Below are positions 5,641-60,098 of a stretch of DNA of 64,000 bases, in pieces. Below the pieces are notes generated by a model that saw only the letters and a list, made by a program, of their open reading frames with translations, was not told the DNA's origin and ran no database searches. Source of the DNA: Stomatobaculum sp. F0698 (lineage in GTDB: Bacteria; Bacillota; Clostridia; Lachnospirales; Lachnospiraceae); contig NZ_CP130060.1 in NCBI RefSeq assembly GCF_030644385.1, positions 372,001 to 436,000 on the forward strand, written 5' to 3'. Within the stretch, counting starts at the first letter, position 1, and every line of letters starts with the position of its first letter. Position numbers and translations under genes: made by a program.

Positions 5641-5669
5641 TTTCCAAAAAAGGGCGGAAAGAGTATAAT
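5641..5669 (+). promoter_or_regulatory. Promoter of the zinc-ribbon/LRR array
   Basis: -35 TTTCCA (5641-5646), a 17-bp spacer and a perfect -10 TATAAT (5664-5669). Confidence 0.6.
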
Positions 5670-5684: not shown

Positions 5685-5706
5685 AGCAGGCGGGGAACCG
5701 CCTGCT
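5685..5706 (+). promoter_or_regulatory. 5'-leader hairpin of the zinc-ribbon/LRR array
   Basis: A perfect 9-bp stem AGCAGGCGG/CCGCCTGCT closes a GGAA (GNRA-type) loop. It starts about ten bases after the predicted transcription start and 26 bases before the first start codon. It has no T run, so it is not a terminator. A role in mRNA stability or translation is possible. Confidence 0.45.
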
Positions 5707-5731: not shown

Positions 5732-6499
5732 ATGAAAATTACTTCGTTGACCTGCCCGCACTGCGGCGCCGCGCTGCAATGGGAAGAAGGTCAGGACAAA
5801 GCGGTTTGTCCGTACTGCGGCAGTGCGCTCCGCGTCGATATTTCCGCACCCGAAATCAAGGTGAATTTTTACGGAAACCGCGAGACAGCGCCGGCCTCCG
5901 AGGGACCGGATATCGGACTCAGCTTGGGGCAGAAACTCATTGTCGGGGGAATTACCGCTGCCTGCCTTCTGGTTCCGGTGGTGCTCGGCATCGCGGACAG
6001 CAATGCCTCCGCGCGGCGGCAAAACGCGGAGAGCGCGGCGGCTGCGAGTGCGGCAACGCAGCAGATGGAGCGCTATACCATCTCCGGTGCGGAGAACCTG
6101 GACGAACTTCAGAAAATTACCGGCTTAAAATACCTCACGATTGAGCACGCGGAGGCAATTACCGACTTCGGCGCGCTCGCCCGTCTTCCTTATTTGGAGA
6201 CCCTCACGATACAGGATGCGCCTAAGCTCACGGATCTCGCTTTCGTGAAGAGCTTGAATCAATTGCAGAGCCTTACGCTGAAAAACACGGGCGTACAGGA
6301 TATATCGCCGCTTTCGGGCATGAAATCCTTGGTCGCGGTGACACTGGAGGACAATCAAATTACGGATTTCACGGCGCTTGGGAGTGTGCCGTATTTAAAG
6401 AATGCGGAGATTCGGGCGGATGAAGTCGCGGCGCTTCCGGAGTTTTCGTCCCTGCAGTTTCTGGAGAGCTTCACCGTGAACGGGGAGACAAAAAAATGA
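5732..6499 (+). CDS. Membrane protein: N-terminal zinc ribbon, one TM helix, short LRR ectodomain (array member 1)
   Basis: 255 residues. A four-Cys zinc ribbon (C8, C11, C26, C29) is followed by a single hydrophobic helix at about residues 67-88 and an Ala/Ser-rich linker. About five leucine-rich repeats of 21-23 residues follow from about residue 125 (for example LKNTGVQDISPLSGMKSL). Topology is predicted ribbon-inside, LRR-outside. Three in-frame ATGs occur (5714, 5726, 5732). I choose 5732 because GAGGGG sits seven bases upstream. This is the shortest LRR member and lacks the roughly 100-residue region found before the LRRs in the larger relatives. Its stop overlaps the next start (ATGA). 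I recognise the architecture but no named family and assign no function. Confidence 0.8.
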   Translation: MKITSLTCPHCGAALQWEEGQDKAVCPYCGSALRVDISAPEIKVNFYGNRETAPASEGPDIGLSLGQKLIVGGITAACLLVPVVLGIADSNASARRQNAESAAAASAATQQMERYTISGAENLDELQKITGLKYLTIEHAEAITDFGALARLPYLETLTIQDAPKLTDLAFVKSLNQLQSLTLKNTGVQDISPLSGMKSLVAVTLEDNQITDFTALGSVPYLKNAEIRADEVAALPEFSSLQFLESFTVNGETKK

Positions 6500-8295
6500 A
6501 AGCGAGCGGGCTGGGCTGTAAGCTTCGAAGCGTTGTTGTGCCCTTCGCGTTGCTTTTGGCAAGCGGCGTTGTGCTCGGTGGCTGCAAAGCGGTCTTTGCA
6601 AAGGGGAGGGAGCGAAGCGCGGACGCAGCAATTCGCGTGACCCTGCCTTTCGTTTCGAAGTACAGTCCCAAGTATGCCGACACGCTGACGGATCCGGTGT
6701 TGCGGCGCGCCTTTTCGGAAGTGTTCCGAAAAGATCCCGACGCGATTACGCCGGAAGAGTATCGGCGCGTTCGGGGAATTCGCTTTGAGACCGTAGACTG
6801 GTTTCTGGTTCGCATGGATGTGTTACTGCAAGACGGAAGCAAAGTGCAGGTTCCGATTGTCAACAACGGGGAAGGCATCACCCTCGACGGGAACTCGTTT
6901 CAGGCCTTCCCGAATCTCGAAACGCTCGATATGTCGGGTCAACGCTCTTTGCTTCATGTCACGTTTTCTTCACAGGAGTATGCGAATACGCTTGCCAATC
7001 TGAAGCAGCTGAGCTGTCTCTATCTGCCGGATTCGGGGGACTACCCCGGAAGCCCGGCGGGGCTCGCATATATGGTCGCGAATCCCGGCGCAATGGAAGA
7101 ACTGGGCGGGGTTTCACTCTATGCGACGGCAGATGTCGAAAAACTTGTTCGCACATTTCCGAACTTAAGAAAGCTGCGAATTGTGAGGCGGGAGTTAGGG
7201 GTTAGCTTGTCCGGATTACAGGAATGTAAGGAGCTTAGAGCACTCTATACCCCGCTGCGGCGCGCGGGAAACGAGGATTTACTCGCGCTCACGGGGGTGC
7301 GGGATATGGAACTCATTGCCTCAGAGGGGGATGAGAACATCGAAGATTTCCGCTTTTTGTCGGGACTCACAGAACTGGAGCAGCTCACCCTCCGCGACGC
7401 CGTTGCGCTCCGGAATTTGAACGATATGAAGCCCCTGACAAAGTTGCGGGAACTGCGCCTTTCGGGCGTGACACAGCTCACGAGCCTAGAGCCGCTCCGG
7501 GCGCTCACGGCGCTTGAAACGCTGGATCTCGGGAACAGTTTCAATCTTTCGGACTATGCCGCACTTTACGAGCTTCCGCAGCTCAAAAGACTCAGAATTT
7601 CCGACGGCTGGCAGGCGGGGCGTTTCATACCGGATGTGACCCTGATCCCGGCGCTCGAAGAACTCGAGTGCAGTGCGGAGACGCTCCCGCAGCTGGCCCG
7701 CTGCCGGAAACTGAAAAAACTCACACTCTTTCTCAGTCACTTTGACAGCAAGACGGATTTTTCGGGACTTGCGCGCCTTTCGGAACTCGAGGAACTTACG
7801 TTGAATGTCGAGAGCGCTGCGAAGAATACGGAAACGCTCTATGCACTCCGGGAACTGCCGAAGCTTCGAAAAGTCACCTTCTGTTGCAAAGAGGGAACAG
7901 TTCCGCTGCATGCCTTTCCGGCGGTCGCGGAGCTCACCGTGCTCGGCGAGGATGCGGGAATGGGCGGCAGTGATGCCGAACTGCAAATTCGCGCGGAGAC
8001 CGAGGCGGATGCCCCTGCACTGGAACGTCTCAGCGTCTACGCGCACAACAAGGTGCGGTTTGAGGGCTGGCGCAGCACAACACTCCGGGAGCTGCGCCTC
8101 GGCCGTTGCGGCATCGATACGCTCTCATTTATGGAGGCTTTCCCCAATCTGGAGCTTTTGGACCTCAGCGACAATCGCGTCGAGGATATTGCGGCGCTCA
8201 CCGCGCTGCCAAAGCTTCGCTATCTGCGCTACACGGATAATGTGATTCAAAACATTGCGTTATTAAAGAACAGAGGCATAGTTCTGGTCGAATAA
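6496..8295 (+). CDS. Lipoprotein with LRR ectodomain (array member 2)
   Basis: 599 residues. It lacks the zinc ribbon. Instead it has a signal peptide with a lipobox (LGGC, lipidated C30). Residues of about 60-165 form a module shared with members 4 and 5 (LRRAFSEVFRKDP, then an EEY segment and FQAFPNLETLD). Roughly 18-20 leucine-rich repeats follow, with a conserved C-terminal cap (VIQNIALLKNRGIVLVE). It is expected on the outer face of the membrane. The start overlaps the previous stop by four bases, so it is translationally coupled. LRR surfaces usually bind proteins or glycans; the ligand is unknown. The swap of anchor relative to its relatives is the notable feature. Confidence 0.85.
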   Translation: MKASGLGCKLRSVVVPFALLLASGVVLGGCKAVFAKGRERSADAAIRVTLPFVSKYSPKYADTLTDPVLRRAFSEVFRKDPDAITPEEYRRVRGIRFETVDWFLVRMDVLLQDGSKVQVPIVNNGEGITLDGNSFQAFPNLETLDMSGQRSLLHVTFSSQEYANTLANLKQLSCLYLPDSGDYPGSPAGLAYMVANPGAMEELGGVSLYATADVEKLVRTFPNLRKLRIVRRELGVSLSGLQECKELRALYTPLRRAGNEDLLALTGVRDMELIASEGDENIEDFRFLSGLTELEQLTLRDAVALRNLNDMKPLTKLRELRLSGVTQLTSLEPLRALTALETLDLGNSFNLSDYAALYELPQLKRLRISDGWQAGRFIPDVTLIPALEELECSAETLPQLARCRKLKKLTLFLSHFDSKTDFSGLARLSELEELTLNVESAAKNTETLYALRELPKLRKVTFCCKEGTVPLHAFPAVAELTVLGEDAGMGGSDAELQIRAETEADAPALERLSVYAHNKVRFEGWRSTTLRELRLGRCGIDTLSFMEAFPNLELLDLSDNRVEDIAALTALPKLRYLRYTDNVIQNIALLKNRGIVLVE

Positions 8296-8312
8296 ACGAC
8301 AAGGAGACGGGA

Positions 8313-8678
8313 ATGAATCCGACAAAAATCCGCTGCCCACACTGCGGAAGCAGCATAGCGGTGAGGCAGAGCGGCAAGATGAAATGTCGTGTCTGCGGAA
8401 GCGAGCTCCGGATCGAAGAAGAGAAGCCGGTTAAAAAGAGTGGGATAGCGGAAGTGAACTACGGCAGACGGATGTCATCGGAACTGTTTGCAATCTCGAT
8501 GACAGTCTGCGCACTTGCGAGCATTTTCTTTATTTTATTGCCGGTGCTCGGTCGCGGGGCGCGGAAGAAAGCGCCAAAGGCGGCGCAGGAATATGAGACG
8601 CATGTGAGTGCGGAACCTGGAGAACTCGGCCTGAAGGACTGTGTTCACACGGTGTTCGACTTCGTGCGTACGCTTTGA
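8313..8678 (+). CDS. Small zinc-ribbon membrane protein without LRR (array member 3, probably a truncated paralogue)
   Basis: 121 residues. The first 30 residues nearly match members 4 and 5 (MNPTKIRCPHCG start; C8, C11, C25, C28). One TM helix follows at about residues 58-78, then about 40 residues that show only a trace of the relatives' post-TM region (YETHVS) before ending. No LRR remains. It follows member 2 by 17 bases with its own AAGGAGACGG site. It could be a decayed copy whose ectodomain was lost, or a working stand-alone anchor. Start and ribosome site look intact, so I keep it as a coding gene. Confidence 0.7.
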   Translation: MNPTKIRCPHCGSSIAVRQSGKMKCRVCGSELRIEEEKPVKKSGIAEVNYGRRMSSELFAISMTVCALASIFFILLPVLGRGARKKAPKAAQEYETHVSAEPGELGLKDCVHTVFDFVRTL

Positions 8679-8724
8679 CTTAGGGGCTGCCGCTTGTTTG
8701 TCCCAATCAGATGAGGAGAATAGG

Positions 8725-10689
8725 ATGAATCCGACGAAAATTCGCTGCCCGCACTGCGGAAACAACATACTGGTTAAGCAGAGCGGAAAGGTGGCTTGCC
8801 CCTTTTGCGGGACCGCGCTCTATGTCGAAGAAAAAGAGAAGAAGGTTGAAATCAATGTAAACCTGGGGCGAAAAACCAAGCCCGAAGTGCCGAATTATCT
8901 TCCGGCCTTCATCGGCGGCGGTGCAATTGTCCTTCTGCTGTGTCTGACTCTCCTTCCGTCCCTGCTCCGCGGCAACACGGGGCGCACGCAGACGGAGAGC
9001 AGAGTTCAGAATCACTATGCAAGCGAGGTGCACGATGCGGCGCTTCGCAGAGCCTTTGCGGAAGTGTTTGAGAAGGAGCCGTCCGAATTTACGGCGGAGG
9101 ACTATCAGAGTGTAAGGCGCATTGCCTTCCGGAGAGAGAACGACTATCTCACTTGGATGGAGGTGGGCTTCACGGACGGCAGCGAAAAGCGCGTGCCCAT
9201 GCTCCACAACACCACGGACACGATAGAACTGGACGGAACCGACTTTCAGGCCTTCCCCATGCTCGAAGAGCTGGATACCGCCACTGCCGCAGGCTACGAT
9301 GTGAGTCTCTCGTTTCGCTCCTCGGAGTACACGAATACCCTCGGCAATCTGAAACACTTAAAAAAGCTGTATCTCTCGAATGTCGGCAACAGCAGAGGTC
9401 CGACCGAGTTTGCGGAGCTCTTTGCGGATCCCGCATCGATCGAAGCACTGGGCGGGGTTTTCTTTTTTCGCCAGGGGGATGTAAAGGAGCTGGTTGGGCA
9501 GTTCCCGAAGCTCCGAGAACTCCGCGTCGGCTGGAGAAATGACGAAGTCTCGCTCGCGGCGTTAAAGGACTTAAAGGAGCTTGAGAGTCTCACGGCCACC
9601 CTGCGCCTTAAGGGAAATGAGGACATCCTTGAACTCACACAGCTCAAGGCGCTGGATATTCAGGCAGTCGATTCGGGGGAGAACGTAAAAGACCTGCGTT
9701 TTCTCTCCGGACTCACGCAGCTTGAAAGCCTCACCGTACGAGACGGCCATGACATTAAGAGCCTCAATATGCTGAGCGCGCTCACAAACCTGCGGGAGCT
9801 TCGCCTTCTCGACGGCAGCGATGTGGTCAGCATAGAGCCGCTCCGCGCGCTCACGGAACTGCGCGTACTGGATATCGGAGACTGCACTGATATCACGGAC
9901 TATGCTGCCCTTCCCGCGCTCACCAAGCTGGAAAAATTGCGCGTTTGTGATGATGATTGGCCGCCGTCCGGGACAGTGCCGGATCTGAGTCCTCTCACCT
10001 CTCTTTCGGAGCTTGAACTCTACGCGCGAGATGCAGAGAGCATTGCGAACTGCCGGAGTATCAAGAAACTCACCCTGCTCGCGGAGCGCACGGGGGACGG
10101 CAGCGACTTATCCCCGCTCGCGGGACTGACAGGTCTTGAAGAGCTTAGGCTGAATCTCGCAAGCACGACGGAGGAGCTCCTGCATCAAGAGGTGTTTGCG
10201 GGGCTGCCGTCTCTTAGCAAGGTAACCCTGCGCTGCGACACCAATCCGATTTCTTTGGATTACTTCCCGCAGGTCAAAGAAATTACGATCATCGGAGAGA
10301 GTATCGTCGGCGGTACGCCGTCGGGATCGCTGACCCTGAGTAAGGTAACGAGCGGCGGCAACCCCGCGCTGGAAAGCTTCTCGGTCTATGGCTTCGACGG
10401 GCTGAGACGCGGGGACTACCGAAACGGCTTTGAGGAGGGAAGCGCGGTGCTCGACTTCCTTTCGCACTGCCCATCGCTCCGGGAGCTGCGCATAGAGCAC
10501 TGCAATCTCTCGGATCTCAAGTTCGCGGAGGGGCTATCCGCGCTTCAATTCCTCAATATCGCAGACAATCGCTTTGAGGATGTCGCGCCGCTCTCGGGGC
10601 TCCCGTCGCTTCGCTGCCTGGTCTATACGGAAAACGCGATTCAAAACATCGGTATCTTACAAAATAAGGGAATTGCACTGATCGAATAA
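8725..10689 (+). CDS. Membrane protein: N-terminal zinc ribbon, one TM helix, long LRR ectodomain (array member 4)
   Basis: 654 residues. Zinc ribbon C8, C11, C25, C28; one TM helix at about residues 60-81; the shared module (LRRAFAEVFEKEP ... DGSEKRVPM ... FQAFPMLEELD) at about 100-195; then about 18 leucine-rich repeats and the cap AIQNIGILQNKGIALIE. The start at 8725 follows AGGAGAATAGG. The frame is open for 28 more codons upstream, but those lack a ribosome site. The predicted orientation puts the ribbon in the cytoplasm and the LRRs outside, so the protein could link an outside binding event to an inside partner. No named family recognised. Confidence 0.85.
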   Translation: MNPTKIRCPHCGNNILVKQSGKVACPFCGTALYVEEKEKKVEINVNLGRKTKPEVPNYLPAFIGGGAIVLLLCLTLLPSLLRGNTGRTQTESRVQNHYASEVHDAALRRAFAEVFEKEPSEFTAEDYQSVRRIAFRRENDYLTWMEVGFTDGSEKRVPMLHNTTDTIELDGTDFQAFPMLEELDTATAAGYDVSLSFRSSEYTNTLGNLKHLKKLYLSNVGNSRGPTEFAELFADPASIEALGGVFFFRQGDVKELVGQFPKLRELRVGWRNDEVSLAALKDLKELESLTATLRLKGNEDILELTQLKALDIQAVDSGENVKDLRFLSGLTQLESLTVRDGHDIKSLNMLSALTNLRELRLLDGSDVVSIEPLRALTELRVLDIGDCTDITDYAALPALTKLEKLRVCDDDWPPSGTVPDLSPLTSLSELELYARDAESIANCRSIKKLTLLAERTGDGSDLSPLAGLTGLEELRLNLASTTEELLHQEVFAGLPSLSKVTLRCDTNPISLDYFPQVKEITIIGESIVGGTPSGSLTLSKVTSGGNPALESFSVYGFDGLRRGDYRNGFEEGSAVLDFLSHCPSLRELRIEHCNLSDLKFAEGLSALQFLNIADNRFEDVAPLSGLPSLRCLVYTENAIQNIGILQNKGIALIE

Positions 10690-10701
10690 AGGACGAGGAA
10701 A

Positions 10702-12663
10702 ATGAATCCGACAAAAATAAGATGCCCGCATTGCGGGAACAGTATTTTGATCAAACAAAGCGGAAAAAGCGTCTGCCCTTCTTGCGGGACGCCGCTCTAC
10801 ATCGAGGAAAAAGACAAATCCGTCAATGTCAATGTCACGCTCGGAAACATCGAAAAAAGCGAGGCGAAGCAGAAGGGCTTCTTCCTTGCCCTGCTTGCTT
10901 TTATTTTGCTTTCGGTGTTTTTCATGTTGTTCCTGCCCGCCATCTTCCGCACGGGGCGTAAGGTGCAAAAGACGGTCGCGCCGAAGTACGAGACGAGCCT
11001 TCACGATCCGGTGCTGACCCGGCTCTTTGCGGAAGCCTTCGAGAAGGATCCCGCATCGATTACGGAAGAGGATTATGCGCGCGTCAAGACGATTTCGTTT
11101 CAAAGGGAACTGAGCGGTTTGTTATGGCTGGAAGTCGGCTTTACGGATGACAGCGAGAAGCGCATTCCTCTGGTGTACGACGAGCGGACGGTTGAAATCG
11201 ATGGGACAGACTTCCAGGTTTTTCCGAATCTGGAGGGACTCTATGTCGCGGAGACCGCGACCGGAGGCGATGTTCGCCTTTCCTATGAATCCGAGGAATA
11301 TGCGCACAACCTGGCCAATCTGACGAAGTTAAAATATCTGCATCTCTCGGAGAGAAGCAGCTACGATCGAACCCCGAAGGAACTGGCCGCCTTTGTCGCA
11401 AATCCGGCACAAATCGAGGAACTCAACGGTGTGAGCCTCTATGACGCGGAGGATGTCGAAGCGCTGGTAAAGTACTTCCCGAATCTCAAAAAGCTGATCA
11501 TCGTCGATCGCGGCGCGGATGTCTCGCTTGCCGATTTAAAGCAGCTGTCTCAGCTCGAACTGCTCGCGACAGAACTTCGCGCGGACGGAAACGAGGATCT
11601 CTTGGAACTCACGGGGGTCAAAGAGATGGAGATTCTTGCCCGTGCGGACGGAAATCCGGTCAAGGATTTTCGCTTTCTTTCGGGCCTCACCGGCCTCAGA
11701 AGCCTGACGCTGGTCGGTGCCACCGAGTTAAAAAGTCTCAATGCGCTGAGCCCGCTCACCGAACTTGAGGAATTGCGTATTTACGACGCGCGGGAATTGC
11801 TCAGCATAGAGCCGCTCCGGGGGTTCACGGCGCTTCGTGTATTGGACATCGGAGACAGCACGGCGCTTGAGAATCTGGATGCCCTGCAGTCGCTGACCGC
11901 GCTCCGAAAGCTGAGACTGACCAACAGTGCCTGGGGGGCAAAGGCGATTCCGCCGGATTTGAGCATGCTGACTTCGCTTGAGGAAGCGGAAATCGAGGAG
12001 GACAGCATGGCGTCCGTTGCTGCTTGCCGCAGCCTAAAGAAGCTCACAATTTACATGAATCACTTCGGGGAAGGCAGTGATTTTTCACAGCTTGCCGGTC
12101 TTGAGAATCTGGAGAGCCTGCGTCTCAATATCTCAAGCAGCGCGTATCGGTATACGAATATCGAGCGTCTTTCGGCCCTGCCGAAACTCAGAACGCTCAA
12201 GCTGGTCGGAGACGAAGGCCCGCTTCCGCTGAAAGCATTTCCGCAGGTCACGGAGATTGAGGTCATAGGGAAGAACGTTGTGGCGGATTTCAGTAATTCC
12301 AAGCTGGTCATCGACCCGCTGCCCGACAGCGAAAATACCGCTTTGGAACGCCTGACTGTCATCGGTTTCGAAGGGATTCAGAGCAGCCCGTACGGGAGCG
12401 AACAACAATACGGTTCCGATGTTTTGTCCCGGCTCTCTTACTGCACGTCGCTTCGGGAACTCCGCCTGATTCACTGCGGGCTTACGGATCTTAATTTCGC
12501 AAGTGCCGTCCCGAATGTGGAAGTTTTGGACATCGGCGGAAACCGCATCGAGGATATTTCGCCGCTCACGGCCCTCCCGAAACTTCGGGAGCTTTACTGC
12601 GGTGACAATGAGATTCAAAATATCGCGGTGATGCGGGACAGGGGCATTTTATTGCTGGAATAA
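10702..12663 (+). CDS. Membrane protein: N-terminal zinc ribbon, one TM helix, long LRR ectodomain (array member 5)
   Basis: 653 residues with the same plan as member 4: zinc ribbon C8, C11, C25, C28, TM helix at about 57-80, shared module (LTRLFAEAFEKDP ... FQVFPNLEGLY), about 18 LRRs, and the cap EIQNIAVMRDRGILLLE. It begins 12 bases after member 4 with GGACGAGGAA upstream. Members 4 and 5 are clear tandem duplicates that have diverged most in the LRR surface, as expected if the repeats bind variable partners. Last gene of the array; I see no clear T-tailed hairpin after it. Confidence 0.85.
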   Translation: MNPTKIRCPHCGNSILIKQSGKSVCPSCGTPLYIEEKDKSVNVNVTLGNIEKSEAKQKGFFLALLAFILLSVFFMLFLPAIFRTGRKVQKTVAPKYETSLHDPVLTRLFAEAFEKDPASITEEDYARVKTISFQRELSGLLWLEVGFTDDSEKRIPLVYDERTVEIDGTDFQVFPNLEGLYVAETATGGDVRLSYESEEYAHNLANLTKLKYLHLSERSSYDRTPKELAAFVANPAQIEELNGVSLYDAEDVEALVKYFPNLKKLIIVDRGADVSLADLKQLSQLELLATELRADGNEDLLELTGVKEMEILARADGNPVKDFRFLSGLTGLRSLTLVGATELKSLNALSPLTELEELRIYDARELLSIEPLRGFTALRVLDIGDSTALENLDALQSLTALRKLRLTNSAWGAKAIPPDLSMLTSLEEAEIEEDSMASVAACRSLKKLTIYMNHFGEGSDFSQLAGLENLESLRLNISSSAYRYTNIERLSALPKLRTLKLVGDEGPLPLKAFPQVTEIEVIGKNVVADFSNSKLVIDPLPDSENTALERLTVIGFEGIQSSPYGSEQQYGSDVLSRLSYCTSLRELRLIHCGLTDLNFASAVPNVEVLDIGGNRIEDISPLTALPKLRELYCGDNEIQNIAVMRDRGILLLE

Positions 12664-13503: not shown

Positions 13504-14286
13504 TCAGACCAAGGTTTGAAATTCGATTTCCTCGAGCGACCAGACCAGACGGTTCGTCTGCAGAAGGGCGCTCTTACAGAAGGGACAAAATTTCGCATCG
13601 GCACGCTGCAGGGGCGCACCGCAGTGCGGACAGGAGACAGCGGTGATCTTTTGATACCCGCTTTTGTAGTTGACACTCTGGACATGGACCAGAACCGAAG
13701 TGACGGTCGTCTCGACCCGGTGGGGAACGGCGAGCGCCGCTGCGCGCGCCTTGCCCTCGCTTTTCCGGACGGCATCGCCCGCGAGAGAAGCGGTAAAGCC
13801 GATGGAACTCACCAGTCGGATTTCCGTCAGCGTTGCCTGGTTTTTATAGTCCGCAATCGCGGTCTTATGAATCACGATGTCGGAAAAACTGCGCGTCAGC
13901 TCGTTCATGCGGTCATCCTCGATTGCAAGGCGAACGCGCTCCCGCAGGCTCTCGGAGGGAGCGGAGAGTTTACTTAAGTCCAGCGCCTGTCTTGCGGCGA
14001 GCACGGAGACAATGCGCTTTTCGATCGCGACCCGTTCTTCGGGCCAGTTGAAGGCCGGAAAATCGCGGTTGATGGCAGGGAGAAAGAGCTTTGTCATATC
14101 CGGAACGGAGCGCTCCGTAGGGCCCAGCTTTTTACTCTCCTCCGCCGCGCGGAGCAGACTTCTCAGGTCGTGAAGAAAGCCCGAGAATTCGCGGAACGGT
14201 CGGCCGAACAGTCTCGGGAGCAAAAACAAAACAGCAAGTACCGCAAGGAGCGGACGCAATGCGAGAAGAATTTCAGGTACTGTCAT
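13504..14286 (-). CDS. Membrane-anchored protein with C-terminal zinc ribbon
   Basis: 260 residues. One N-terminal hydrophobic helix (about 6-25) precedes a soluble region with a Tim44-like feel (INRDFPAFNW, then a long helical stretch and a beta-rich part ending HVQSVNYKSG). A C-terminal four-Cys zinc ribbon follows (C219, C222, C234, C237), with SCPHCGAPL resembling the ribbons of the nearby LRR array but at the opposite end of the protein. Start ATG 14286 follows CGGAGG. It is transcribed divergently from the kinase gene, with a perfect palindrome between them. The Tim44-like call is tentative; the function is unknown. Confidence 0.7.
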   Translation of the reverse strand: MTVPEILLALRPLLAVLAVLFLLPRLFGRPFREFSGFLHDLRSLLRAAEESKKLGPTERSVPDMTKLFLPAINRDFPAFNWPEERVAIEKRIVSVLAARQALDLSKLSAPSESLRERVRLAIEDDRMNELTRSFSDIVIHKTAIADYKNQATLTEIRLVSSIGFTASLAGDAVRKSEGKARAAALAVPHRVETTVTSVLVHVQSVNYKSGYQKITAVSCPHCGAPLQRADAKFCPFCKSALLQTNRLVWSLEEIEFQTLV

Positions 14287-23721: not shown

Positions 23722-25452
23722 ATGCAAAAGAGGCTATGCGCGCTTACGGCCGCAGTCTTTCTGGCAGGCTTTGCGGCGGGCAGCGGATACACGGGACTTA
23801 AAAGTCGTGCTGCTCCCGCCGCTTTTCGCCGGGAGCAGGCGGGAAGCAAGCGGATTGCGGTGGTCAACCTGGATAACGGCATTCGTCAGGCAGGAAAGCG
23901 GATTTACTATGCGGCGGATGCCATGGAGTTTCCGGATGCGGATTTCATCTCGGTGAGTGCGCGAGAGGCGGAACTCGGCTTGGAAAGCGGCTACTATGCG
24001 GCGGCGCTCACGATACCCGGGGATTTTTCGGAACAAGCGGACAGTCTGGCCCGCGTCCCGGGGCAGGCAAGCCTCCGGTATACCGTTTCGGCCGAATTGA
24101 CGGCGGAAGAGCGGGCGGATGTTCAGCGGCGTATCGGAAGCTTCGGAGAGCGCATGAACCGTAACATGGTCTACCTTTATTTCCACGCGATACTCGGCGA
24201 ATTTCATGCGGCGCAGGACGCGGTACGACCGGCGCTTGAAAATCATGCGCTTGCGTTGCAAGAGCTCGGGGGCTTAAACCCCGAGCAGTGGATGCAAGAA
24301 GCGCTGTTGCCGACGGAACCGGAGGAAGCAAGGCCGTCTCGGAGAGCGGTGTATACGACAGCGGCCTATGAGGCGTTGCGCCGTGAACTCGACCGGGAGG
24401 AAGCGCTGCTGTTTGAGATAGCGGAAGAGCAGGCGCGTTTGGAAGCCGAAATTGCGCGTTTTGCGGAGGCGGAGGCGCTGCGTGCGGAGAGTCGCACGGA
24501 GGCGGCGGAGGCCCTGTACCGCGAGCTGTCGGAAACGGCGGAGCGCGAGGCGGCAGATCGAAGTCGTATCACGCTGCGGCTTGCGAGCGCCTCCGATGCG
24601 GAGATTCTGAAAAGCGAGCGCTATCTAAAGCGCACTGCCTCGGCTTCGAACGCGCTCTTCCTTGCAAGCGCTTCGGATGCGCTGCCAGAGACCGAGCGCA
24701 GTGCCTGGCGGGCAGAGCGCCGGCAACTCGCGAGTGCCTCGGATGCGACCCGCGCGGCATTTGCCGCGCTGCAAACAGAACTCGAAGAACTGCCCGCCTT
24801 TCCGGAAGCGGAACTCAGAAAGCGTATCGATGCGGAGGTTTTCGATGCGTCGAAGGAGAGAGAGGAACGCCTTGCGGATTTAAGGCGGCAGAGTGAGCGA
24901 CTCTCAAGGCTTTCGGAAGAGACGGCGCTTACAAACGGCAGAGGCGGAGAACGCCGCCTTGCCCGCAGGGAAGCCGTGCGCGCCGTTTGGGAGGAAAGGG
25001 ATGAACTGCTGGCGGGGATTCGCGCGGAAGAACAGGCGAGGGAAGAGGAACGAAAACAGAGCCGCGCCTACGGTGCTTTGCTAAGAGAAGCCTTGCGGGA
25101 TGCGGAGCTGAAGAGCGGGACCAAAGCCAAAGAGGCTGTGGAGCGGCTGAAGGAAAACGGCGCGACAAAGCTTGCGGAGAACCGACGACTCCTCGGCGGC
25201 TTTGCCGAGCGGCTGCCGCACACGCGAAACGGGAGTCTGCCGAATAAGGCGAGCTACGAAAAAATGGCTGCGCCGCTTCGTCTGATTGAGGAGGGCGGAG
25301 CAGAGCCCCCCGAGACAGTCGGAATCGCGACCGAGCCGGTACAAAGCAGGGAACGGCGGGCGGAAGAACTCCCGTTTCGGCAACTCCTCTTTGCGGGACT
25401 GGCCCTGTCCGCGGGGGCCGGGCTCGGGCTTATCACGGGAAGGCGGCGTTAA
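23722..25452 (+). CDS. EsaA-like (YhgE/Pip-type) type VII membrane protein, short form
   Basis: 576 residues, much shorter than the roughly 1000-residue EsaA/YueB proteins. An N-terminal TM helix (about 5-25) is followed by a YhgE/Pip-like outer region (RIAVVNLDNGIR ... YYAAALTIPGDFS). Then comes a long Glu/Arg-rich helical stretch (about 190-480) and one C-terminal TM helix (about 550-570). The multi-helix C-terminal membrane domain of usual EsaA is missing. Four near-copies of ASASDA/ASASNA occur at about residues 288, 307, 315 and 337. The start follows GGGGGAGAG. In known systems EsaA forms the extracellular stalk and acts as phage receptor in YueB; here a reduced version is likely. Confidence 0.7.
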   Translation: MQKRLCALTAAVFLAGFAAGSGYTGLKSRAAPAAFRREQAGSKRIAVVNLDNGIRQAGKRIYYAADAMEFPDADFISVSAREAELGLESGYYAAALTIPGDFSEQADSLARVPGQASLRYTVSAELTAEERADVQRRIGSFGERMNRNMVYLYFHAILGEFHAAQDAVRPALENHALALQELGGLNPEQWMQEALLPTEPEEARPSRRAVYTTAAYEALRRELDREEALLFEIAEEQARLEAEIARFAEAEALRAESRTEAAEALYRELSETAEREAADRSRITLRLASASDAEILKSERYLKRTASASNALFLASASDALPETERSAWRAERRQLASASDATRAAFAALQTELEELPAFPEAELRKRIDAEVFDASKEREERLADLRRQSERLSRLSEETALTNGRGGERRLARREAVRAVWEERDELLAGIRAEEQAREEERKQSRAYGALLREALRDAELKSGTKAKEAVERLKENGATKLAENRRLLGGFAERLPHTRNGSLPNKASYEKMAAPLRLIEEGGAEPPETVGIATEPVQSRERRAEELPFRQLLFAGLALSAGAGLGLITGRRR

Positions 25453-25459
25453 GACAAGC

Positions 25460-25690
25460 ATGGAAATTACGTTTACACTTCGGGAGGCGGAGCGCGAAGA
25501 GACGCTCTGCCTCGACGACGAACTGCGAATGGACGAAGTCTTAAGGCGGATTGCGGCGCAGGGCAGTTTCACGGCGCGGGCGGCGGACTGCCTTTATCTT
25601 CGCTCGAAGAACGGCGGGGAAGCTCTCTGTACGGCGCAGAGCTTTCGCGCGGCCGGCATTGTGAGCGGTGACGAACTGGAACTCATATGA
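25460..25690 (+). CDS. YukD/EsaB-like ubiquitin-fold protein
   Basis: 76 residues of beta-grasp type (MEITFTLREAEREE start, LDDELRMDEVLRRI helix, ending GDELELI). Such small proteins accompany EssB and EssC in T7SSb loci and are needed for secretion or its regulation. The frame extends 58 codons upstream inside the EsaA-like gene, but ATG 25460, eight bases after that gene's stop, matches the domain boundary. Its ribosome site is weak (GGAAGGCGG), suggesting coupling to the upstream gene. Confidence 0.8.
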   Translation: MEITFTLREAEREETLCLDDELRMDEVLRRIAAQGSFTARAADCLYLRSKNGGEALCTAQSFRAAGIVSGDELELI

Positions 25691-25699
25691 GGAGGGAAA

Positions 25700-26803
25700 A
25701 TGGAAGCGGAAAAGCGCATCTTTGTTCGGAATTCGGAGAGTCGAACGGAGAGACAAAAGAGGGGTTTGCTCGCCGTGAGCAAGCCCCTCTTTTGTCCCTG
25801 TGAACTCGAGGAAGCGGAGAACGGTTTTTACTTCCGTTTCGAAACGGCGGGACTGTGGGAATGGGAGGCGGTGCAAGCGTTGGAGACGGAAGAAAAATTG
25901 CGGCTCTTATTAAACTGCGCCGCGCTCGAAACGCTTACGGCACACTATGTGTTTGCGCTCACGCCCGAAAATCTCTTGTTCGACCGCAATCTCTGCCCGC
26001 GCGTGCTCATAAGGGATATACGTGCGGAAGCGGCGCGGACGGAGGACTTTTTCCGCGCCTATCGTGCGCTCACGGCCTCGGTGCTCTCGAGACGCTATGG
26101 CTTTTCCGATTTTTCGGAGGGCGGAGAGCGTCTCTTTCAGGCAGAGCCGGCCTGTCGCGAACTGCTTTCCCTCGGGTCTGTCGCGGAACTTGTGAGAAAT
26201 CTCACCGCGCGCTGGGAACGGGAACGAAAGCGGTGCAGGGAGGAAACGGTCCGTATCTCCGTGCGGCGTGCGCGCATTCTCGGCGCTGCACTGCCGCTTT
26301 GCGGGGCCGTGATTCTCTGTTTGAGCGCGCTCTGGTTCTTTGCTTACCGCGTGCGGCTTCGGCAGGCCGAACGGCTGATTGCGGCGCAGGAAGCCTATTT
26401 AAGAGAGGACTATCTTGCGGTCACGGCAGTGCTGGGGGAGATAAAGGCAGAGCGACTGTCGCCCGAACTCCGCTATCTCTTTGCGCGCGCCGCGGTCTTT
26501 ACCGAGGGCCTTACGCCGAGACAACGGGAAAATGTTCTCTCCTCGCTTCATGTGAAGAGCGAGGAGAGTCTGCTTTCCTTTTGGATTTTCATCGCGCAGA
26601 ACCGCTTTGCGGAGGCACTCGATGCGGCAAAACGAAGGGATGACAGCGAATTGCAGCTCTATGCGCTCTTAAAGGAGGAGAGCCTGCTCGCGAGTCGCCG
26701 GGACTTAACGGGAGAGGAGCGGGAGGCAGAGGCAGCCGAGATTTCGGCGGCCATCGAAGCCCTGCGGAAAAAACGGGCGGAAACGGGAGGAGGGCAAGAA
26801 TGA
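25700..26803 (+). CDS. essB: EssB/YukC-like type VII secretion protein
   Basis: 367 residues. A kinase-like cytoplasmic domain without catalytic residues (about 1-180; NLLFDRNLCPRVL resembles the pseudokinase core) is followed by one TM helix at about 194-218 and a helical outer domain (about 225-360). That is the plan of EssB/YukC, the bitopic scaffold that contacts EssC. The start follows GAGGAGGG, and the stop overlaps the EssC start by four bases. Confidence 0.88.
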   Translation: MEAEKRIFVRNSESRTERQKRGLLAVSKPLFCPCELEEAENGFYFRFETAGLWEWEAVQALETEEKLRLLLNCAALETLTAHYVFALTPENLLFDRNLCPRVLIRDIRAEAARTEDFFRAYRALTASVLSRRYGFSDFSEGGERLFQAEPACRELLSLGSVAELVRNLTARWERERKRCREETVRISVRRARILGAALPLCGAVILCLSALWFFAYRVRLRQAERLIAAQEAYLREDYLAVTAVLGEIKAERLSPELRYLFARAAVFTEGLTPRQRENVLSSLHVKSEESLLSFWIFIAQNRFAEALDAAKRRDDSELQLYALLKEESLLASRRDLTGEEREAEAAEISAAIEALRKKRAETGGGQE

Positions 26804-29800
26804 AGCGATATCTGTATCGTAGGGAGGATGTGATTCTGGAGACTGCGGAGGCATCTCGGGAGCCCGGTGCGGAGCTGTTGGTTGTGCTCGACGAGGATAG
26901 GCTCTATGCGCTTCCGGAAGAAGCGGTGTTTATCGGCACCGCGCCGCCCTGCCAGCTCGTGTCAAAAGAGAAGGAATTCTTTGCGGTTCTCCGCCCGAAC
27001 GGCGAATTCTGTCTGCGCGCGGGTGTGCTTTATCGAAACGGCAGACGCTTTTCGGAGGGAAGCGTGCGGCTTCAATGCGGAGATAAGCTATACTTCGGGG
27101 AGAGTTTGCTCTGTTTTCGGGGAGACAGCATTGTGCTTTCGGGGGAGAAGATAAGCTGCAGCCTCGAGGAGCTTCCCTTGCTTCGCACGAAACCGCCGCG
27201 TTTTCCGCAGTACAGCCGTTCGCCGCGCACAAAAACGCCGCTTCGGGAGGAGACGGTGGAACTGTTGCGCCCGGAGTGCTTGCCGGAGCAGACGCGGGGC
27301 GATCAACTGCGCCGTATTTTGCTGCCCCTCTGCACCTTGCTCTTAATGGGCGGCAGCGCCTTTCTCTTGGGGCGCTACTCCATGTTGCTTCTCGGCGGCG
27401 GCATGCTGGCCCTCACGCTCTGTTTTGCGCTCGCCGCCTTTTGGAGGGGAAGGCAGACGGCAAGACAGCGGGCAGCCGAACGGGAAGCCGGATACGAGGC
27501 ATATTTGCTGCGGCAACAAAAGCGACTCGCGGGGCTTCGTGAAAGTGCGCGGGCGGCCGCGGCACACGAAGCCCCGGAACTCTCCGCGCTCGAAGAAATG
27601 GCGGAGCGCTATTCGCCGCGCATCTACGAGAGAAGCCCCGCGGACGCCGACTTTCTGGAACTTCTGCTCGGGCGGAGTCGGCAGGCCGCGCCCTTTTGTA
27701 TCCGCTTTGACGCGCAGGAGACCAAGCGGGAACGAGACCCGCTCTGCCTGGAGGCACTCGCGCTTCAGCGGGAGTTTTCGGAGATGGCGGATATGCCCCG
27801 CACGGTGAAACTCACGGAAAGTCAGCTGGGCCTTATCGGAGAACCGGAGCGGCTCGCGAAACTTTTGCGCGGCTATCTGCTGCGCCTCTGTTTCTTTCAC
27901 TCCTATCACGAGCTCCGCGTGGTTCTCCTCTGCCGGGAGAGCACAAGTTCGTGCTTTCGGGCCTTCTCCCGGTGCCCGCATTTCGAACTGCCGGAACTCG
28001 GCGTCCGGGGAGCGGTCTTTCGAACGGCGCAGGCGGAAGCAGTGCTCGCGCGCTTAAGCCGCATCGTACGGGAGCGACGACAGCGGCAGCGCGCGGAAGA
28101 AAGAGGACAGCGTTTTTTGCCGCAGTATCTTCTGGTCGCGGAGGATGCCTCTCTCTTGGCGGAGCACAGCCTGCTCGCACAACTCGGTACCGCTTGGCGG
28201 GAGAGCGGCATCTCTCTGATTTACTGTGCGCGGAGTCGGGAAGCTCTGCCGGAAAGCATACGCACCATCGTCACAGCGGAGGGCGGAAACGAAGGGCTGC
28301 TCTGTCTCCGGGACGGACTGGCCGCGAAGGAACAGCTCTCGTTGGAGGAAATCGGAGAAGAGGCCCTGGAGCGCAGTGTGTGCCGTCTCGCGGGGCTTCG
28401 TCATTTCCGGGATGAGAGTGAGGCTCTGCCGGAGCGCCTCGGCTTTCTGGCGCTCTACGGGGTCAAACGGCCCGAAGAACTGGACATCGCGGGGCGCTGG
28501 GCGCGCAATCGCGCGGCGGAGGGGCTTGCCGCGCCGCTCGGCGTACGCGCGGCCCGGGATACGGTGGCGCTCGATTTACATGAGAGCGCACACGGGCCGC
28601 ACGCCCTGCTTGCGGGGACCACGGGCTCCGGAAAGTCGGAGCTCTTACAGAGCCTGATTCTCTCTCTCGCCCTACAGTTTTCGCCGGAGGAAATCGGCTT
28701 TTTGCTGATTGATTATAAGGGCGGCGGCATGGCCCATCTCTTTGCGGATTTGCCGCAGCTCCTCGGCACCGTCACCAATCTGGACGGCAGTGACAGTCGC
28801 CGCGCCCTGCTCGCCGTAAAGAGCGAGCTTGCGCGGCGGCAGCGGCTGTTTCGCGCGGCGGGCGTGAACCACATCGACGCCTACGGCGGTGCGTATCGGG
28901 GCGGATTCGCCGAAGAACCGCTCCCGCACCTCTTTCTGATTGCCGATGAGTTTGCGGAACTGAAGGCCGAGCAGCCGGAGTTTATGGCGGAGCTCATCTC
29001 GACCGCGCGCGTCGGCAGAAGTCTCGGCATCCACCTGATACTCGCGACACAGAAGCCATCCGGCGTGGTCAATGAGCAAATCTGGAGCAATGCGCGCTGT
29101 AAAATCGCGCTGAAGGTGCAGACGGAGGCGGACAGTCGGGAACTCTTGAAAACAGCGGATGCCGCGGACCTCACCTTGCCGGGACGTGCCTACCTCCAGG
29201 TGGGAAACCGCGAGATTTACGAGCTCTTTCAATCCGCCTATAGCGGCGCCACCTATCGGGGCGGCGATGCGGCAATCGACGACCGCATCTATCGGCTGAA
29301 CGCGCTCGGACAGCGGGAACTCCTCTGTCGCAGTGAAAACGGCGGAGATAAGACCTATCCCGGGGAGAGCGAACTGCGTGCCGTCATTCGGGAAATCCGC
29401 CGGACGGCGGAGCGAACAGAGTTGCGTTGCCCGGCGCAGCTCTGGCTGCCGCCGCTGCCCCGCATCTTGCTCACCCCGCGAGATGGCGGGGGCGATGGCG
29501 ATGGTTTTTCGTTTCCGCTCGGGCTCATGGACCTTCCCGAAGCGCAGTGCATGTTGCCCTGTTCGCATGCGTTTTTCTGCGACGGGAACTTTGCGGTCTT
29601 CGGCGCGGGCGGCATGGGAAAGAGCTCTCTGCTGCAGAGCGCGGCGCTCTCTCTTGCGCGGCGCTATTCCTGCGAGACCCTGTATTTTTATCTCCTGGAT
29701 TTCGGCGCGGGCGCGCTCGCGCCGCTCAAAGACCTGCCGCACGCGGCGGATTACATCAGCTTTGACGAGGAAGAGAAGTTAAAGAAACTCACGGCGCTGC

Positions 29801-31017
29801 TTAACGCGGAAGTAAGACGGCGGAAGCGCATGCTCGCCGAGCGCGGCGCGGCGTTTTCCGCTGTTATCGCAGCGGGGGAGGCACTTCCGGTCATTGTGCT
29901 CTTCTTAGATCACTACGATGCGGTCAAGGAACTGGGGCAGGAAGCGGATCACTTTTTTCTGCAGCTCGCGCGGGAGGGGGCGGCGGTCGGAATCTTCTTG
30001 GCGCTCAGTGCGAGCAGGCCGGGGGCACTTCGTTATGCCCTCTTAAATCACATCAAGGACAAGGTGGCACTCTATTTGCTGGAGCCGGCCGAACGCGCGG
30101 GGGCGGTCGGGCGCACGTCGCTCACGCTTCCGGAGATACGCGGCAGGGCGCTCATTCAGCGGGAAGGCGTGCATCTCATGCAGTGTTACCGCGCGGCGGA
30201 CGCGGAGGGAAATGCCTATGCGGCGGCGCTCGCCGCGGAGGTCGCAGCCTGCGCGGCAAATTCGCGGGGAAAGCGCCCGGCGGCGATTCCGTGCATGCCG
30301 GAGTTTCTTACGGCCGCGGAACTCCGGGCGCGCTACCGCGCGGAAAAACAGGACTTTCGCTATGCCGTTGGTCTGGATACCGGGGAGATTGCACCGCGAA
30401 GTCTTATGCTCTACGGCAATACGACGCTTCTCATCGGGCGGGCGCAGTGCGGTAAGACCAACCTCCTCTCGCTGCTCTATGCGGCCTACGAGGGACAGAA
30501 CTATGTGATTGACGGCAGCGGAGACCTATATCCGCTCGCGGCGAAACTCGGAGCGCGCTACGCGGACGATGCGGCGCGTCTTGAGGAGCTTCGCCTCCTC
30601 CTCGAGGCGGAAATCAAAAAGCGCAGGGCTTCCTACGAACTCAGTGGGAAGACCCTGCGCATGCGGGACTATTTCAAACGGGAGCCCATGCTTGCACTCT
30701 GGATCGATGCGGCGGAACGTCTGCCGCATTGGTGTCAAGCGAAGGCAAATGACTGGGAGCACTTGCTCCGCGCTGCCTTAGAACTCGGGGTAACGATTGT
30801 CGCCACGGCTTCGAGCACGCAACTCGGCTCCTACGATGCGGTGAGCAAGCTGCTGCGGGAGGCACAGTCCGGTGTGATCTTCGGCGCGCCGGATGAGCAG
30901 ACCGTGTTCCGCCTGCCGGGGATACGCAGCCGTTCGTCGGGGCCGGATACGGCCCTGCTCTATGAGAGGGGACGCGTCTTTGAGATTAAAATTCCGCTCG
31001 CGGAAACCTTACTGTAA
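26800..31017 (+). CDS. essC: EssC-type FtsK/SpoIIIE ATPase, type VII secretion motor
   Basis: 1405 residues. An FHA-like N-terminal region (about 20-125) leads to two TM helices (about 168-215). Three FtsK/SpoIIIE-type ATPase domains follow with Walker A motifs GTTGSGKS (606-613), GAGGMGKS (935-942) and GRAQCGKT (1213-1220). Domain 1 has an intact Walker B (LFLIADEFAEL). Domains 2 and 3 have DHYDA and DAAERL instead, as often seen in EssC where only domain 1 is a strong ATPase. It drives export of WXG100 and partner proteins. No LXG or other toxin gene follows; the gene ends 9 bases into a convergent lipoprotein gene. Confidence 0.94.
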   Translation: MKRYLYRREDVILETAEASREPGAELLVVLDEDRLYALPEEAVFIGTAPPCQLVSKEKEFFAVLRPNGEFCLRAGVLYRNGRRFSEGSVRLQCGDKLYFGESLLCFRGDSIVLSGEKISCSLEELPLLRTKPPRFPQYSRSPRTKTPLREETVELLRPECLPEQTRGDQLRRILLPLCTLLLMGGSAFLLGRYSMLLLGGGMLALTLCFALAAFWRGRQTARQRAAEREAGYEAYLLRQQKRLAGLRESARAAAAHEAPELSALEEMAERYSPRIYERSPADADFLELLLGRSRQAAPFCIRFDAQETKRERDPLCLEALALQREFSEMADMPRTVKLTESQLGLIGEPERLAKLLRGYLLRLCFFHSYHELRVVLLCRESTSSCFRAFSRCPHFELPELGVRGAVFRTAQAEAVLARLSRIVRERRQRQRAEERGQRFLPQYLLVAEDASLLAEHSLLAQLGTAWRESGISLIYCARSREALPESIRTIVTAEGGNEGLLCLRDGLAAKEQLSLEEIGEEALERSVCRLAGLRHFRDESEALPERLGFLALYGVKRPEELDIAGRWARNRAAEGLAAPLGVRAARDTVALDLHESAHGPHALLAGTTGSGKSELLQSLILSLALQFSPEEIGFLLIDYKGGGMAHLFADLPQLLGTVTNLDGSDSRRALLAVKSELARRQRLFRAAGVNHIDAYGGAYRGGFAEEPLPHLFLIADEFAELKAEQPEFMAELISTARVGRSLGIHLILATQKPSGVVNEQIWSNARCKIALKVQTEADSRELLKTADAADLTLPGRAYLQVGNREIYELFQSAYSGATYRGGDAAIDDRIYRLNALGQRELLCRSENGGDKTYPGESELRAVIREIRRTAERTELRCPAQLWLPPLPRILLTPRDGGGDGDGFSFPLGLMDLPEAQCMLPCSHAFFCDGNFAVFGAGGMGKSSLLQSAALSLARRYSCETLYFYLLDFGAGALAPLKDLPHAADYISFDEEEKLKKLTALLNAEVRRRKRMLAERGAAFSAVIAAGEALPVIVLFLDHYDAVKELGQEADHFFLQLAREGAAVGIFLALSASRPGALRYALLNHIKDKVALYLLEPAERAGAVGRTSLTLPEIRGRALIQREGVHLMQCYRAADAEGNAYAAALAAEVAACAANSRGKRPAAIPCMPEFLTAAELRARYRAEKQDFRYAVGLDTGEIAPRSLMLYGNTTLLIGRAQCGKTNLLSLLYAAYEGQNYVIDGSGDLYPLAAKLGARYADDAARLEELRLLLEAEIKKRRASYELSGKTLRMRDYFKREPMLALWIDAAERLPHWCQAKANDWEHLLRAALELGVTIVATASSTQLGSYDAVSKLLREAQSGVIFGAPDEQTVFRLPGIRSRSSGPDTALLYERGRVFEIKIPLAETLL

Positions 31018-36204: not shown

Positions 36205-37740
36205 ATGAAAATAATCGGAGTGCTCAAGCAAGCCCGGCTCTGGATTGCCGGAGCGGCGCTTGTCTTGTGCGTTTGGGGAATCGGAAAACAATATATAAGG
36301 GGGTCGGACAGGTCACGCTTGGTGCTGATGGCCGTGGAGAACAACCAAGGAACGCAGCAGACCGGAGAAGAGCGCTATACGGCGGAACTCGTCAGCAAGC
36401 AGGGCGAGTCGTTGCAGAGTTTTGCGGTCGATGTGAACCGGAGCCAGAACGGCCGGCGGGTGGATTTGAGTCTCAGGGACGCAATCCCCGCGGATGCGCT
36501 GGAAAAGGGCGTGTATCTGCGCCTGTCCTATCCGCTCCGTGCGAACGGTAGCGCCGTGCGCCTCGAGCAGCCCAATTTAAGCGGTGACGGCGAGTCCATG
36601 CGCTTAAAGAGCGGGCAGCCGGCCCTTGCAATCGGCGGCATGCGCTATCAGTATGATGCGGGCCTGCCGGAATTCAAAAAGCCACTCGCCTGTCTTCTCT
36701 TCCGCAGCGTCGAGGAGAGAGAGGACGGAAAGTTTACGGCCAATCTGTATCTGACCCCGGAGAATGCGGCATTTTCCACGCAGTTTCCGGAGGAAAAGAC
36801 CGTGGAGCGCACCGAGCTGACAAGTCTCAAAAAACTCGGCGAGACAGGCGTTTCCGGTGACGGCGTCGAAGTGGAGTACCGCTATACGACCCGTTTTCAG
36901 GCGGAAGCGCTCGGCAGTTCCGGCAACAGCCTGGAATTGCAGTGCCGGCTGCGCCTTCGCTATCCGACACAGATACGGCTGACCGAGAGCGATAAAACGG
37001 AGTCGACGCAGGATATGTCCCTGGTGTTTACGACCGGAGCCGCGAACGAGACGAAGCTTCGAATTGCGGGGAGTCGCACGGCGGCAAGAAGCACGGCTGT
37101 CGCAGAGAGCAGCAGTGCGGCAGAAAGCACACAGGCAACGGAAATACAGCGGCGCACGGAAAAGACAGAGACAAGCGCTGTCAGACGGCGCGAGACAAGT
37201 GCGTCCGTGCGGCGCACGAGCGCGGCGGCGACAACACAGCAGACCGCCGAGAGCCGTCCGAAGCCGGAGGAAAGTGCGGCGGCGAGCACGGAGGGCGAGA
37301 GCAGCAGCGAAGAGAGCAGCGCAACGCGTGAGAGCGAGCGGCAGACGGTGCGTCGCATCACGAAGCCCGGAAGCGGAAGAGGACGCGGCGGCAGCGGCGG
37401 TCGGAACGAGACTTCGCCGACGGATACTCTGCCGGCCGAGACAAAGGAGAGCGTACCGGAGAGCAAGCCGGAAACGGCCGCGGAGACGAGCGAGTTCAGT
37501 AAGCCGGAAACGACTGCGGAGAGCAGCCGGGAGAGTGCGGCACCGAGCGAGTCCACGGAGTGGGAAACGGAAACGGAGACCGCTTGGGTTACCCAACCCG
37601 ATCTTCCGCCGAACATTCCGACGGATGTTCCGCTGCCCGATTCGACGGACCCGACGTCCCCTTATCCGAGCACAGGCGAGTGGTGGTTCAATCCGAATAC
37701 CGGCGGGAATGCGACGCCGGGGACGGACTGGATTCACTGA
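36205..37740 (+). CDS. Membrane-anchored extracellular protein with Ser/Thr/Glu-rich tail, function unknown
   Basis: 511 residues. One N-terminal hydrophobic segment (about 10-27) is a signal anchor without a lipobox. Residues of about 40-285 form a beta-rich globular region (YTAELVSKQGESLQSFAVDV, then SLRDAIPADAL). Residues of about 290-450 are low complexity, dominated by Ser, Thr, Glu, Ala and Arg with a Gly/Arg patch (SGRGRGGSGG). The end is Pro/Asp/Trp-rich (GEWWFNPNTGG). No LPxTG sorting signal. The tail looks like a wall-spanning or glycosylated linker. Transcribed alone, ending at a shared terminator with ychF. I recognise no family. Confidence 0.75.
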   Translation: MKIIGVLKQARLWIAGAALVLCVWGIGKQYIRGSDRSRLVLMAVENNQGTQQTGEERYTAELVSKQGESLQSFAVDVNRSQNGRRVDLSLRDAIPADALEKGVYLRLSYPLRANGSAVRLEQPNLSGDGESMRLKSGQPALAIGGMRYQYDAGLPEFKKPLACLLFRSVEEREDGKFTANLYLTPENAAFSTQFPEEKTVERTELTSLKKLGETGVSGDGVEVEYRYTTRFQAEALGSSGNSLELQCRLRLRYPTQIRLTESDKTESTQDMSLVFTTGAANETKLRIAGSRTAARSTAVAESSSAAESTQATEIQRRTEKTETSAVRRRETSASVRRTSAAATTQQTAESRPKPEESAAASTEGESSSEESSATRESERQTVRRITKPGSGRGRGGSGGRNETSPTDTLPAETKESVPESKPETAAETSEFSKPETTAESSRESAAPSESTEWETETETAWVTQPDLPPNIPTDVPLPDSTDPTSPYPSTGEWWFNPNTGGNATPGTDWIH

Positions 37741-60056: not shown

Positions 60057-60078
60057 ACACAACAGTATCCGCAGCTCG

Positions 60079-60098
60079 GAGGGCGCTACGGCGCTCTC
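60079..60098 (+). other. Hairpin with UACG tetraloop after transporter copy A
   Basis: Stem GAGGGCGC/GCGCTCTC (one G-U) closes a stable UNCG-type loop 23 bases after the stop. No T run; a 3'-end or processing element is possible. Confidence 0.45.

Follow-up and report, generated by a model that had tools for sequence, protein, structure and literature searches.

The closest described systems to the genes analysed here are membrane proteins that carry a zinc ribbon. For Lactococcus lactis, one report places the N-terminal four-Cys ends of Llmg_0524 and Llmg_0526 in the cytoplasm by PhoA fusions, finds them to bind zinc, and describes Llmg_0524-0526 as an operon of ribbon membrane proteins with a short gene in between (PMC4628341). 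TcaA of Staphylococcus aureus is described as a 454-residue zinc-ribbon protein from an operon (PMC10611510) with a cysteine motif, a helix and a long extracellular chain (PMC4628341). Here we analyse a 64,000-nucleotide stretch of the Stomatobaculum sp. F0698 genome (NZ_CP130060.1, positions 372,001 to 436,000; hereafter the window), in which five open reading frames (ORFs) on the + strand, G1 to G5 in order, occupy positions 5732-12663 and combine a ribbon-helix plan with leucine-rich repeats (LRRs). With a confidence somewhat better than even, we read them as envelope proteins that form a tandem array peculiar to their lineage and expose an LRR solenoid for binding on the external side of the membrane.

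Module architecture of the array

A first-pass annotation of this DNA had proposed a tandem, same-strand array of five genes, and the ORF coordinates and short junctions bear this out, with G1 and G2 overlapping by 4 bases and the subsequent gaps measuring 17, 46 and 12 bases. It had also held that all five genes share three modules (a four-Cys ribbon, a membrane helix and an LRR domain), which holds for three of the five ORFs, G1, G4 and G5, and not for G2, which has a lipobox and no ribbon, or for G3, which has no LRR. G1 (5732-6499, 255 amino acids [aa]; start in the ORF list, 5714) comprises a ribbon at 5753-5818, a predicted membrane helix at about 5933-5995 and a short LRR at about 6095-6460. 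G4 (8725-10689, 654 aa; ORF-list start, 8641) has its ribbon at 8746-8808 and helix at about 8896-8967, followed by a cap and an LRR at about 9217-10686, and G5 (10702-12663, 653 aa) repeats this order with a ribbon at 10723-10785, a helix at 10876-10953, a cap and an LRR at 11191-12660. G2 (6496-8295, 599 aa) consists of a lipoprotein-type signal, a cap and an LRR, its lipobox reading LLASGVVLGGC at residues 20-30 with the lipobox Cys codon at 6583-6585, and G3 (8313-8678, 121 aa) holds only a ribbon (8334-8396) and a helix (about 8484-8549). The four-Cys ribbon accordingly precedes a membrane helix in G1, G3, G4 and G5, with the spacing CX2CX13CX2C in G3-G5 and X14 in G1.

The LRR calls in the four LRR ORFs are far above chance (Pfam LRR_4 matches, E 5e-11 to 5e-24), and a Pfam scan of six proteins at E <= 0.01 returned LRR and ribbon-type families only. 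An AlphaFold2 model of G5 (mean predicted local distance difference test score 80.9) places ribbon strands at residues 4-37, a helix at 59-84 and an LRR solenoid at 164-653. The array paralogues are 43-59% identical to G5.

A syntenic array in a sister species

A scan with two short patterns brought up the record JH590862.1 of Lachnospiraceae bacterium ACC2, the same contig being part of a genome (G005) placed in the window's genus. We take the ACC2 strain to be Stomatobaculum longum; a taxonomy look-up returned that species' lineage only. The sister locus (L027) is a syntenic four-gene array with the same neighbours on either side, and protein identity between window and sister is 69-98% for the eleven flanking genes that were compared. 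G1 and G2 have clear sister orthologues (64% and 78% identity), with the G2 lipobox retained. The third sister gene (L027:8038-9984) is full length at 648 aa, and G3 matches its N-terminus at 60% over 100 residues and that of the fourth at 42% over 104; because its best N-terminal partner is intact in the sister, G3 reads as a truncated copy that lost its LRR. G5 is 59% identical to the fourth sister gene (L027:10001-11947), and no clear orthologue of G4 was found in the sister locus.

A branch with support 100/100 separates the six array proteins from all others in a tree built from 29 family rows. Within that side the G2 pair is firm, and the branch setting G4 apart (94/89) and that of the G5 pair (90/77) are both below the tool's mark. 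Taken together with synteny, this suggests that growth of the array took place at its present site and predates the separation of the two species, with changes on both sides since then, and G4 may have been gained later.

A mostly single-copy family in Lachnospiraceae

Searching the architecture beyond the genus, as the first-pass annotation had suggested, found the plan in other Lachnospiraceae and no recurrent partner gene. A single-sequence search gave matches in 23 of 61 genomes (its own and relatives; E <= 0.001) and, at E <= 1e-8, in 36 of the 397 genomes sampled from Lachnospiraceae, one of them, in genome G207, spanning 1-646 of 653 residues at E 1.6e-37. Inspected via the frame with most LRR motifs, 23 of 29 loci carried a four-Cys motif within the first 150 residues and 6 had none. 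We then built a profile from 29 rows, namely 28 of the 34 members of one neighbour-frame cluster plus the third sister gene, leaving out the two G1 genes, G3, L104, L105 (421 aa, its frame lacking a ribbon) and, through an oversight, the ribbon-bearing L096 (631 aa). As the start of each row we took the methionine nearest the ribbon, which may be wrong in L084, L089 and L093.

At E <= 1e-60 this profile matched 28 of the 397 sampled Lachnospiraceae genomes, in a census that is not independent of the model, whose rows came partly from genomes then searched. Nearly all matches (25 of 28) begin at the ribbon (model start <= 3), the others starting at 52, 176 and, at a contig edge, 275. One match per genome was found in 24 genomes, two in 2, and at least three in both array genomes. 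G5 is matched over 1-616 and G4 over 1-615 of 618 positions, both being profile rows themselves, and homology runs the whole length, from the ribbon and helix through the cap region to the C-terminal LRR cap (for example in L074, L075 and L084); the 23 rows outside the array are 20-26% identical to G5. A class-wide sample had 2 of 291 genomes matching at 1e-60, the window's own and G350, which are Lachnospiraceae and part of the census above. An order-wide sample searched at the laxer 1e-20 had matches in 34 of 295 genomes, and most among the matches listed cover the LRR part only. Within the genus the array is present in 2 of 7 genomes, with LRR matches plus a weak ribbon match in G002, ribbon-only matches in G001, G003 and G006, and no profile match at E <= 0.001 in G004.

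Since the family is mostly single-copy and without a recurrent neighbour, the gene seems solitary as a rule and the array the exception. The "undescribed system" of the first-pass annotation is therefore too strong a term, as the plan recurs outside the array, mostly in one copy per genome across Lachnospiraceae, and a ribbon-protein operon is already published (PMC4628341). The array looks less like a new system than like an uncharacterised family that one lineage amplified in tandem, and in the open-licence literature we found no paper on an LRR version of the ribbon membrane plan, nor any on internalin-like proteins of Lachnospiraceae. What had been taken for a one-off thus becomes a recognisable, apparently unnamed Lachnospiraceae protein family of fixed plan.

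Ribbon, anchor and possible function

Under the envelope-protein reading, the four-Cys ribbon of G1, G4 and G5 would be zinc-bound, cytoplasmic and structural, a folded stop that fixes orientation and stability, while the single helix would export and anchor the C-terminal LRR. G2 would be anchored by a lipid instead, and G3 would display no LRR. The job is the least certain part of the reading; most likely the proteins would bind a partner that is itself conserved, a protein or a polymer, at the cell surface in adhesion or envelope upkeep, and would not meet changing targets. Three more frames in the same genome (L167, L171 and L172; the first and second cut by the locus end) have a ribbon on the N-terminal side and a single predicted helix, and therefore fit with a reusable anchor.

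The main rival on the ribbon holds that these are transmembrane sensors, in which ligand binding by the LRR outside would be signalled by the cytoplasmic ribbon to a partner protein. This we consider unlikely, if worth keeping in view: few parts of G1 and G5 are as well conserved between the species as the ribbon (80% in each, the LRR end of G5 also reaching 80%), and it is kept in 27 of the 29 family rows, but no constant partner gene stands beside the family in our crude gene calls, and G2 and its orthologue manage without a ribbon. Because the anchor has apparently been exchanged for a lipid in G2, the ribbon appears dispensable for the work of the LRR there. A bolder version, decidedly improbable in our view, makes these proteins one-helix receptors from a Lachnospiraceae family not yet described, with the LRR outside coupled to a zinc ribbon in the cytoplasm; amplification in the genus would then have given paralogues that divide the work, with G1, G4 and G5 as full receptors, G2 as a lipid-anchored co-receptor and the G3 stub as a possible signalling or dominant-negative partner. 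Whichever applies, the array offers a natural test of the ribbon's role, with like ectodomains borne in one array on ribbon-helix and, probably, lipid anchors.

On the - strand beside the array, 13504-14286 encodes a protein with the module order reversed, its helix being N-terminal and its four-Cys ribbon C-terminal, and it is 85% identical in the sister. Elsewhere, L104:7474-8802 encodes a 442-aa LRR protein with nine LRR_4 stretches and, by eye, a lipoprotein-type N-terminus and lipobox; it is perhaps a second lipid-anchored LRR protein. In genome G002 of the same genus, L165:2466-4169 reads as a protein kinase domain, a helix and an LRR on one chain, and kinase-LRR frames read likewise in L016, L017 and L019.

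Variation and selection across the array

The first-pass annotation held that the copies differ most in the LRR, as expected of a diversifying recognition set, in which LRR surfaces would change from one copy to the next so as to match targets that change. We consider such a set very unlikely. Several divergent paralogues are present, and copies turn over, G3 being truncated in the window and G4 without a sister partner, as such a set would have it. Between G4 and G5, however, it is the transmembrane (TM)/linker segment that varies most (18% amino acid identity, vs 75% in the ribbon, 57% in the cap and 38-54% in the LRR), so that the LRR varies more than the ribbon and less than the linker. 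Against the sister, too, the lowest-identity segment is the TM/linker in G1 (28%) and G5 (36%) and the signal segment in G2 (47%), with LRR identities of 75% in G1, 83% in G2 and, in G5, 57% over the main part and 80% at the end.

Nei-Gojobori counts between window and sister species, the two from which all array selection data come, gave overall ratios of nonsynonymous to synonymous change (dN/dS, omega) of 0.21 for G1, 0.24 for G2 and 0.21 for G5, those of G1 and G5 being rough because their dS is high (1.37 and 1.63). LRR omega was 0.11-0.21. Flanking genes range from 0.035 to 0.25 (CPBP 0.248, MntP 0.244), so the array genes are among the faster ones locally, yet inside the local range. 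The dS of G1 and G5 exceeds that of all eleven flanking genes (0.18-1.09), with intervening G2 at 0.59, and falls to 0.63 over the C-terminal 78 residues in the G5 pair vs 2.08 in the rest of its LRR; conversion, old paralogy or fast synonymous change could account for both the high values and the drop.

Mapping variable positions on the model likewise did not single out the concave face of the array LRRs, faces being assigned from DSSP strands of one G5 model with buried residues included in the convex class. Nine pairwise tests found no significant concave excess, the sole nominal result (G2/G4, p 0.011) having the concave face lower. Among the six array members, column entropy was 1.08 bits on the concave vs 1.13 on the convex face (p 0.38), and concave columns were lower than polar-majority convex columns (1.08 vs 1.26, p 0.036). 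A concave excess does appear family-wide, over all 29 rows (2.58 vs 2.20 bits, p 0.0006) and over the 23 outside the array (2.44 vs 2.04, p 0.00015), but it fades against polar-majority convex columns (p 0.18 and 0.085). Diversifying selection on the LRR face is thus unsupported for the array by regional dN/dS, pairwise counts and column entropy alike, and we caution that a tandem LRR array should not be called diversifying receptors without a selection test.

A ribbon protein with another ectodomain (L155:1493-2494 and L157) is 95.8% identical between the same two genomes, from which we conclude that an N-terminal ribbon is not itself tied to fast change. Its ectodomain matches no Pfam family at E <= 0.01, and its hydrophobic stretch is below the threshold of 1.9.

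Orientation and points against an outward-facing array

The LRR is likely outside, as the first-pass annotation had predicted. This orientation is favoured because the G2 lipobox is kept in both species, with its homologous LRR following a lipoprotein-type signal, and because PhoA fusions put the ribbon ends of Llmg_0524 and Llmg_0526 inside (PMC4628341). The charge bias of G5 goes the other way, with +4 behind the helix vs +1 before it.

Several results weigh against the outward-facing envelope array, and charge, judged by the positive-inside rule, is the first of them. The N-minus-C difference across the helix is -3 in G5, 0 in G4 and -2 in each of the two sister proteins. The negative values are what an inverted topology, with the ribbon outside and the LRR cytoplasmic, would lead one to expect; we judge that alternative highly improbable in view of the G2 signal, the PhoA placements and the wider family, where 15 of 27 ribbon rows are more positive on the N side, 10 on the C side and 2 are tied. 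The sister G2 signal is itself below the hydropathy threshold of 1.7, though its lipobox matches. Constraint is uneven, omega reaching 0.95 for the TM/linker of G1, 0.56 for the signal segment of G2 and 0.44 for the G3 stub when this is taken against its full-length sister partner. Among 34 compared loci (28 with a family member by that clustering, several cut by contig ends), no cluster of neighbour frames beyond the family itself occurs in more than 10. Gene calls there were longest non-overlapping frames, which in this G+C-rich DNA included wrong-strand choices (an antisense frame over Hcp was taken in the window, and the third sister gene was missed in L027), so that, with several loci cut short, a conserved partner has possibly been missed.

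Lastly, promoter and terminator scans around the array performed no better than shuffles. A candidate promoter, TTTCCA-17-TATAAT at 5641-5669 on the + strand (10 of 12 matches), came from a scan with 4 sites vs 3.4 expected by chance, and both of its hexamers are retained in the aligned upstream region of L027; co-transcription of the five genes is presumed. A perfect 9-pair G+C-rich hairpin lies at 5685-5706, in the leader between this candidate and G1, and is not conserved in the aligned L027 region.

Other features of the window and rejected origins

A scan of five proteins with PADLOC (E <= 0.01) gave no model match over a protein, and we rejected an anti-phage defence role; contact was limited to ribbons, with PDC-S64 touching G3 residues 5-33 (E 3e-4) and G4 residues 5-31 (E 8.5e-4). 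A mobile origin was likewise rejected, plasmid (4 records) and phage (6 records) relatives being generic LRR matches only, at 22-25% identity. None was confirmed among viral contigs searched with two short peptide patterns, and the window has no tRNA and a flat G+C content. No Rfam match reached gathering scores in the window.

Elsewhere in the window, 23722-31017 holds a type VII secretion (T7SSb) locus, with EssC at 1123.7 bits (above the cut-off of 778.4), EssB/YukC above its Pfam cut-off and at 171.5 vs 229.75 in NCBIfam, and an EsaA-like N-terminus at 70.6 bits, below the cut-off of 122. The 511-aa protein of 36205-37740 has an N-terminal hydrophobic stretch and, by eye, a long Ser/Thr/Glu-rich tail, with no Pfam match at E <= 0.001. 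Three tandem transporter ORFs, alike by eye, lie at 58527-63463, the first, which was the one scanned, belonging to the POT/PTR2 family.

Comparison with known systems

Internalin A and its Listeria relatives have an LRR solenoid of the same general kind, and the array proteins share with them the presence of an LRR domain; the anchor, flanking domains and export signal differ. The chance that these are internalin-type adhesins is slim in the extreme: sequence matches to internalin A chains (E 3e-18 to 1e-17, with a Roco protein best at 1e-20), weak matches to internalin models and fold matches to internalins speak for it, but curated scores are far below cut-off (best 79.5 bits vs 1600 for InlA, 56.7 vs 1050 for InlH), Leptospira LRR proteins and SDS22 reach Z scores equal to or above those of internalins, the ribbon-helix replaces a cleaved signal in G1, G4 and G5, and the chains end without a sortase motif. 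Eight of the nine array proteins of the two species are LRR proteins that terminate in or just behind the LRR, and none of the nine has an LPxTG-like motif near its C-terminus, the one such motif being an internal LPDSG at G2 residue 177. Membership already fails on anchor and curated score, and a shared adhesive function alone is arguable. BspA-type repeats (LRR_5, PF13306) did not reach their cut-off either: of six proteins scanned, five had no match at E <= 0.01 and L027:8038-9984 scored 18.0 bits vs a cut-off of 27.7, and the 11 families that G2 matched at E <= 1 did not include them.

TcaA is alike in its ribbon plan; its ectodomain may differ from those of the array, for which the Pfam scan returned LRR and ribbon-type families only (E <= 0.01). 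Llmg_0524 and Llmg_0526 share with the array an N-terminal four-Cys motif, a membrane helix and clustered genes (an operon in Lactococcus). They differ in their cysteine spacing (CX2CX10CX2C there, CX2CX13-14CX2C here) and, according to their authors, have no other sequence motif, with two helices predicted for Llmg_0524 (PMC4628341). Set beside these systems, the array follows a membrane-protein plan already known, in an LRR variant that is uncharacterised and that one lineage has amplified; the LRR variant and the exchange of anchors are the new elements.
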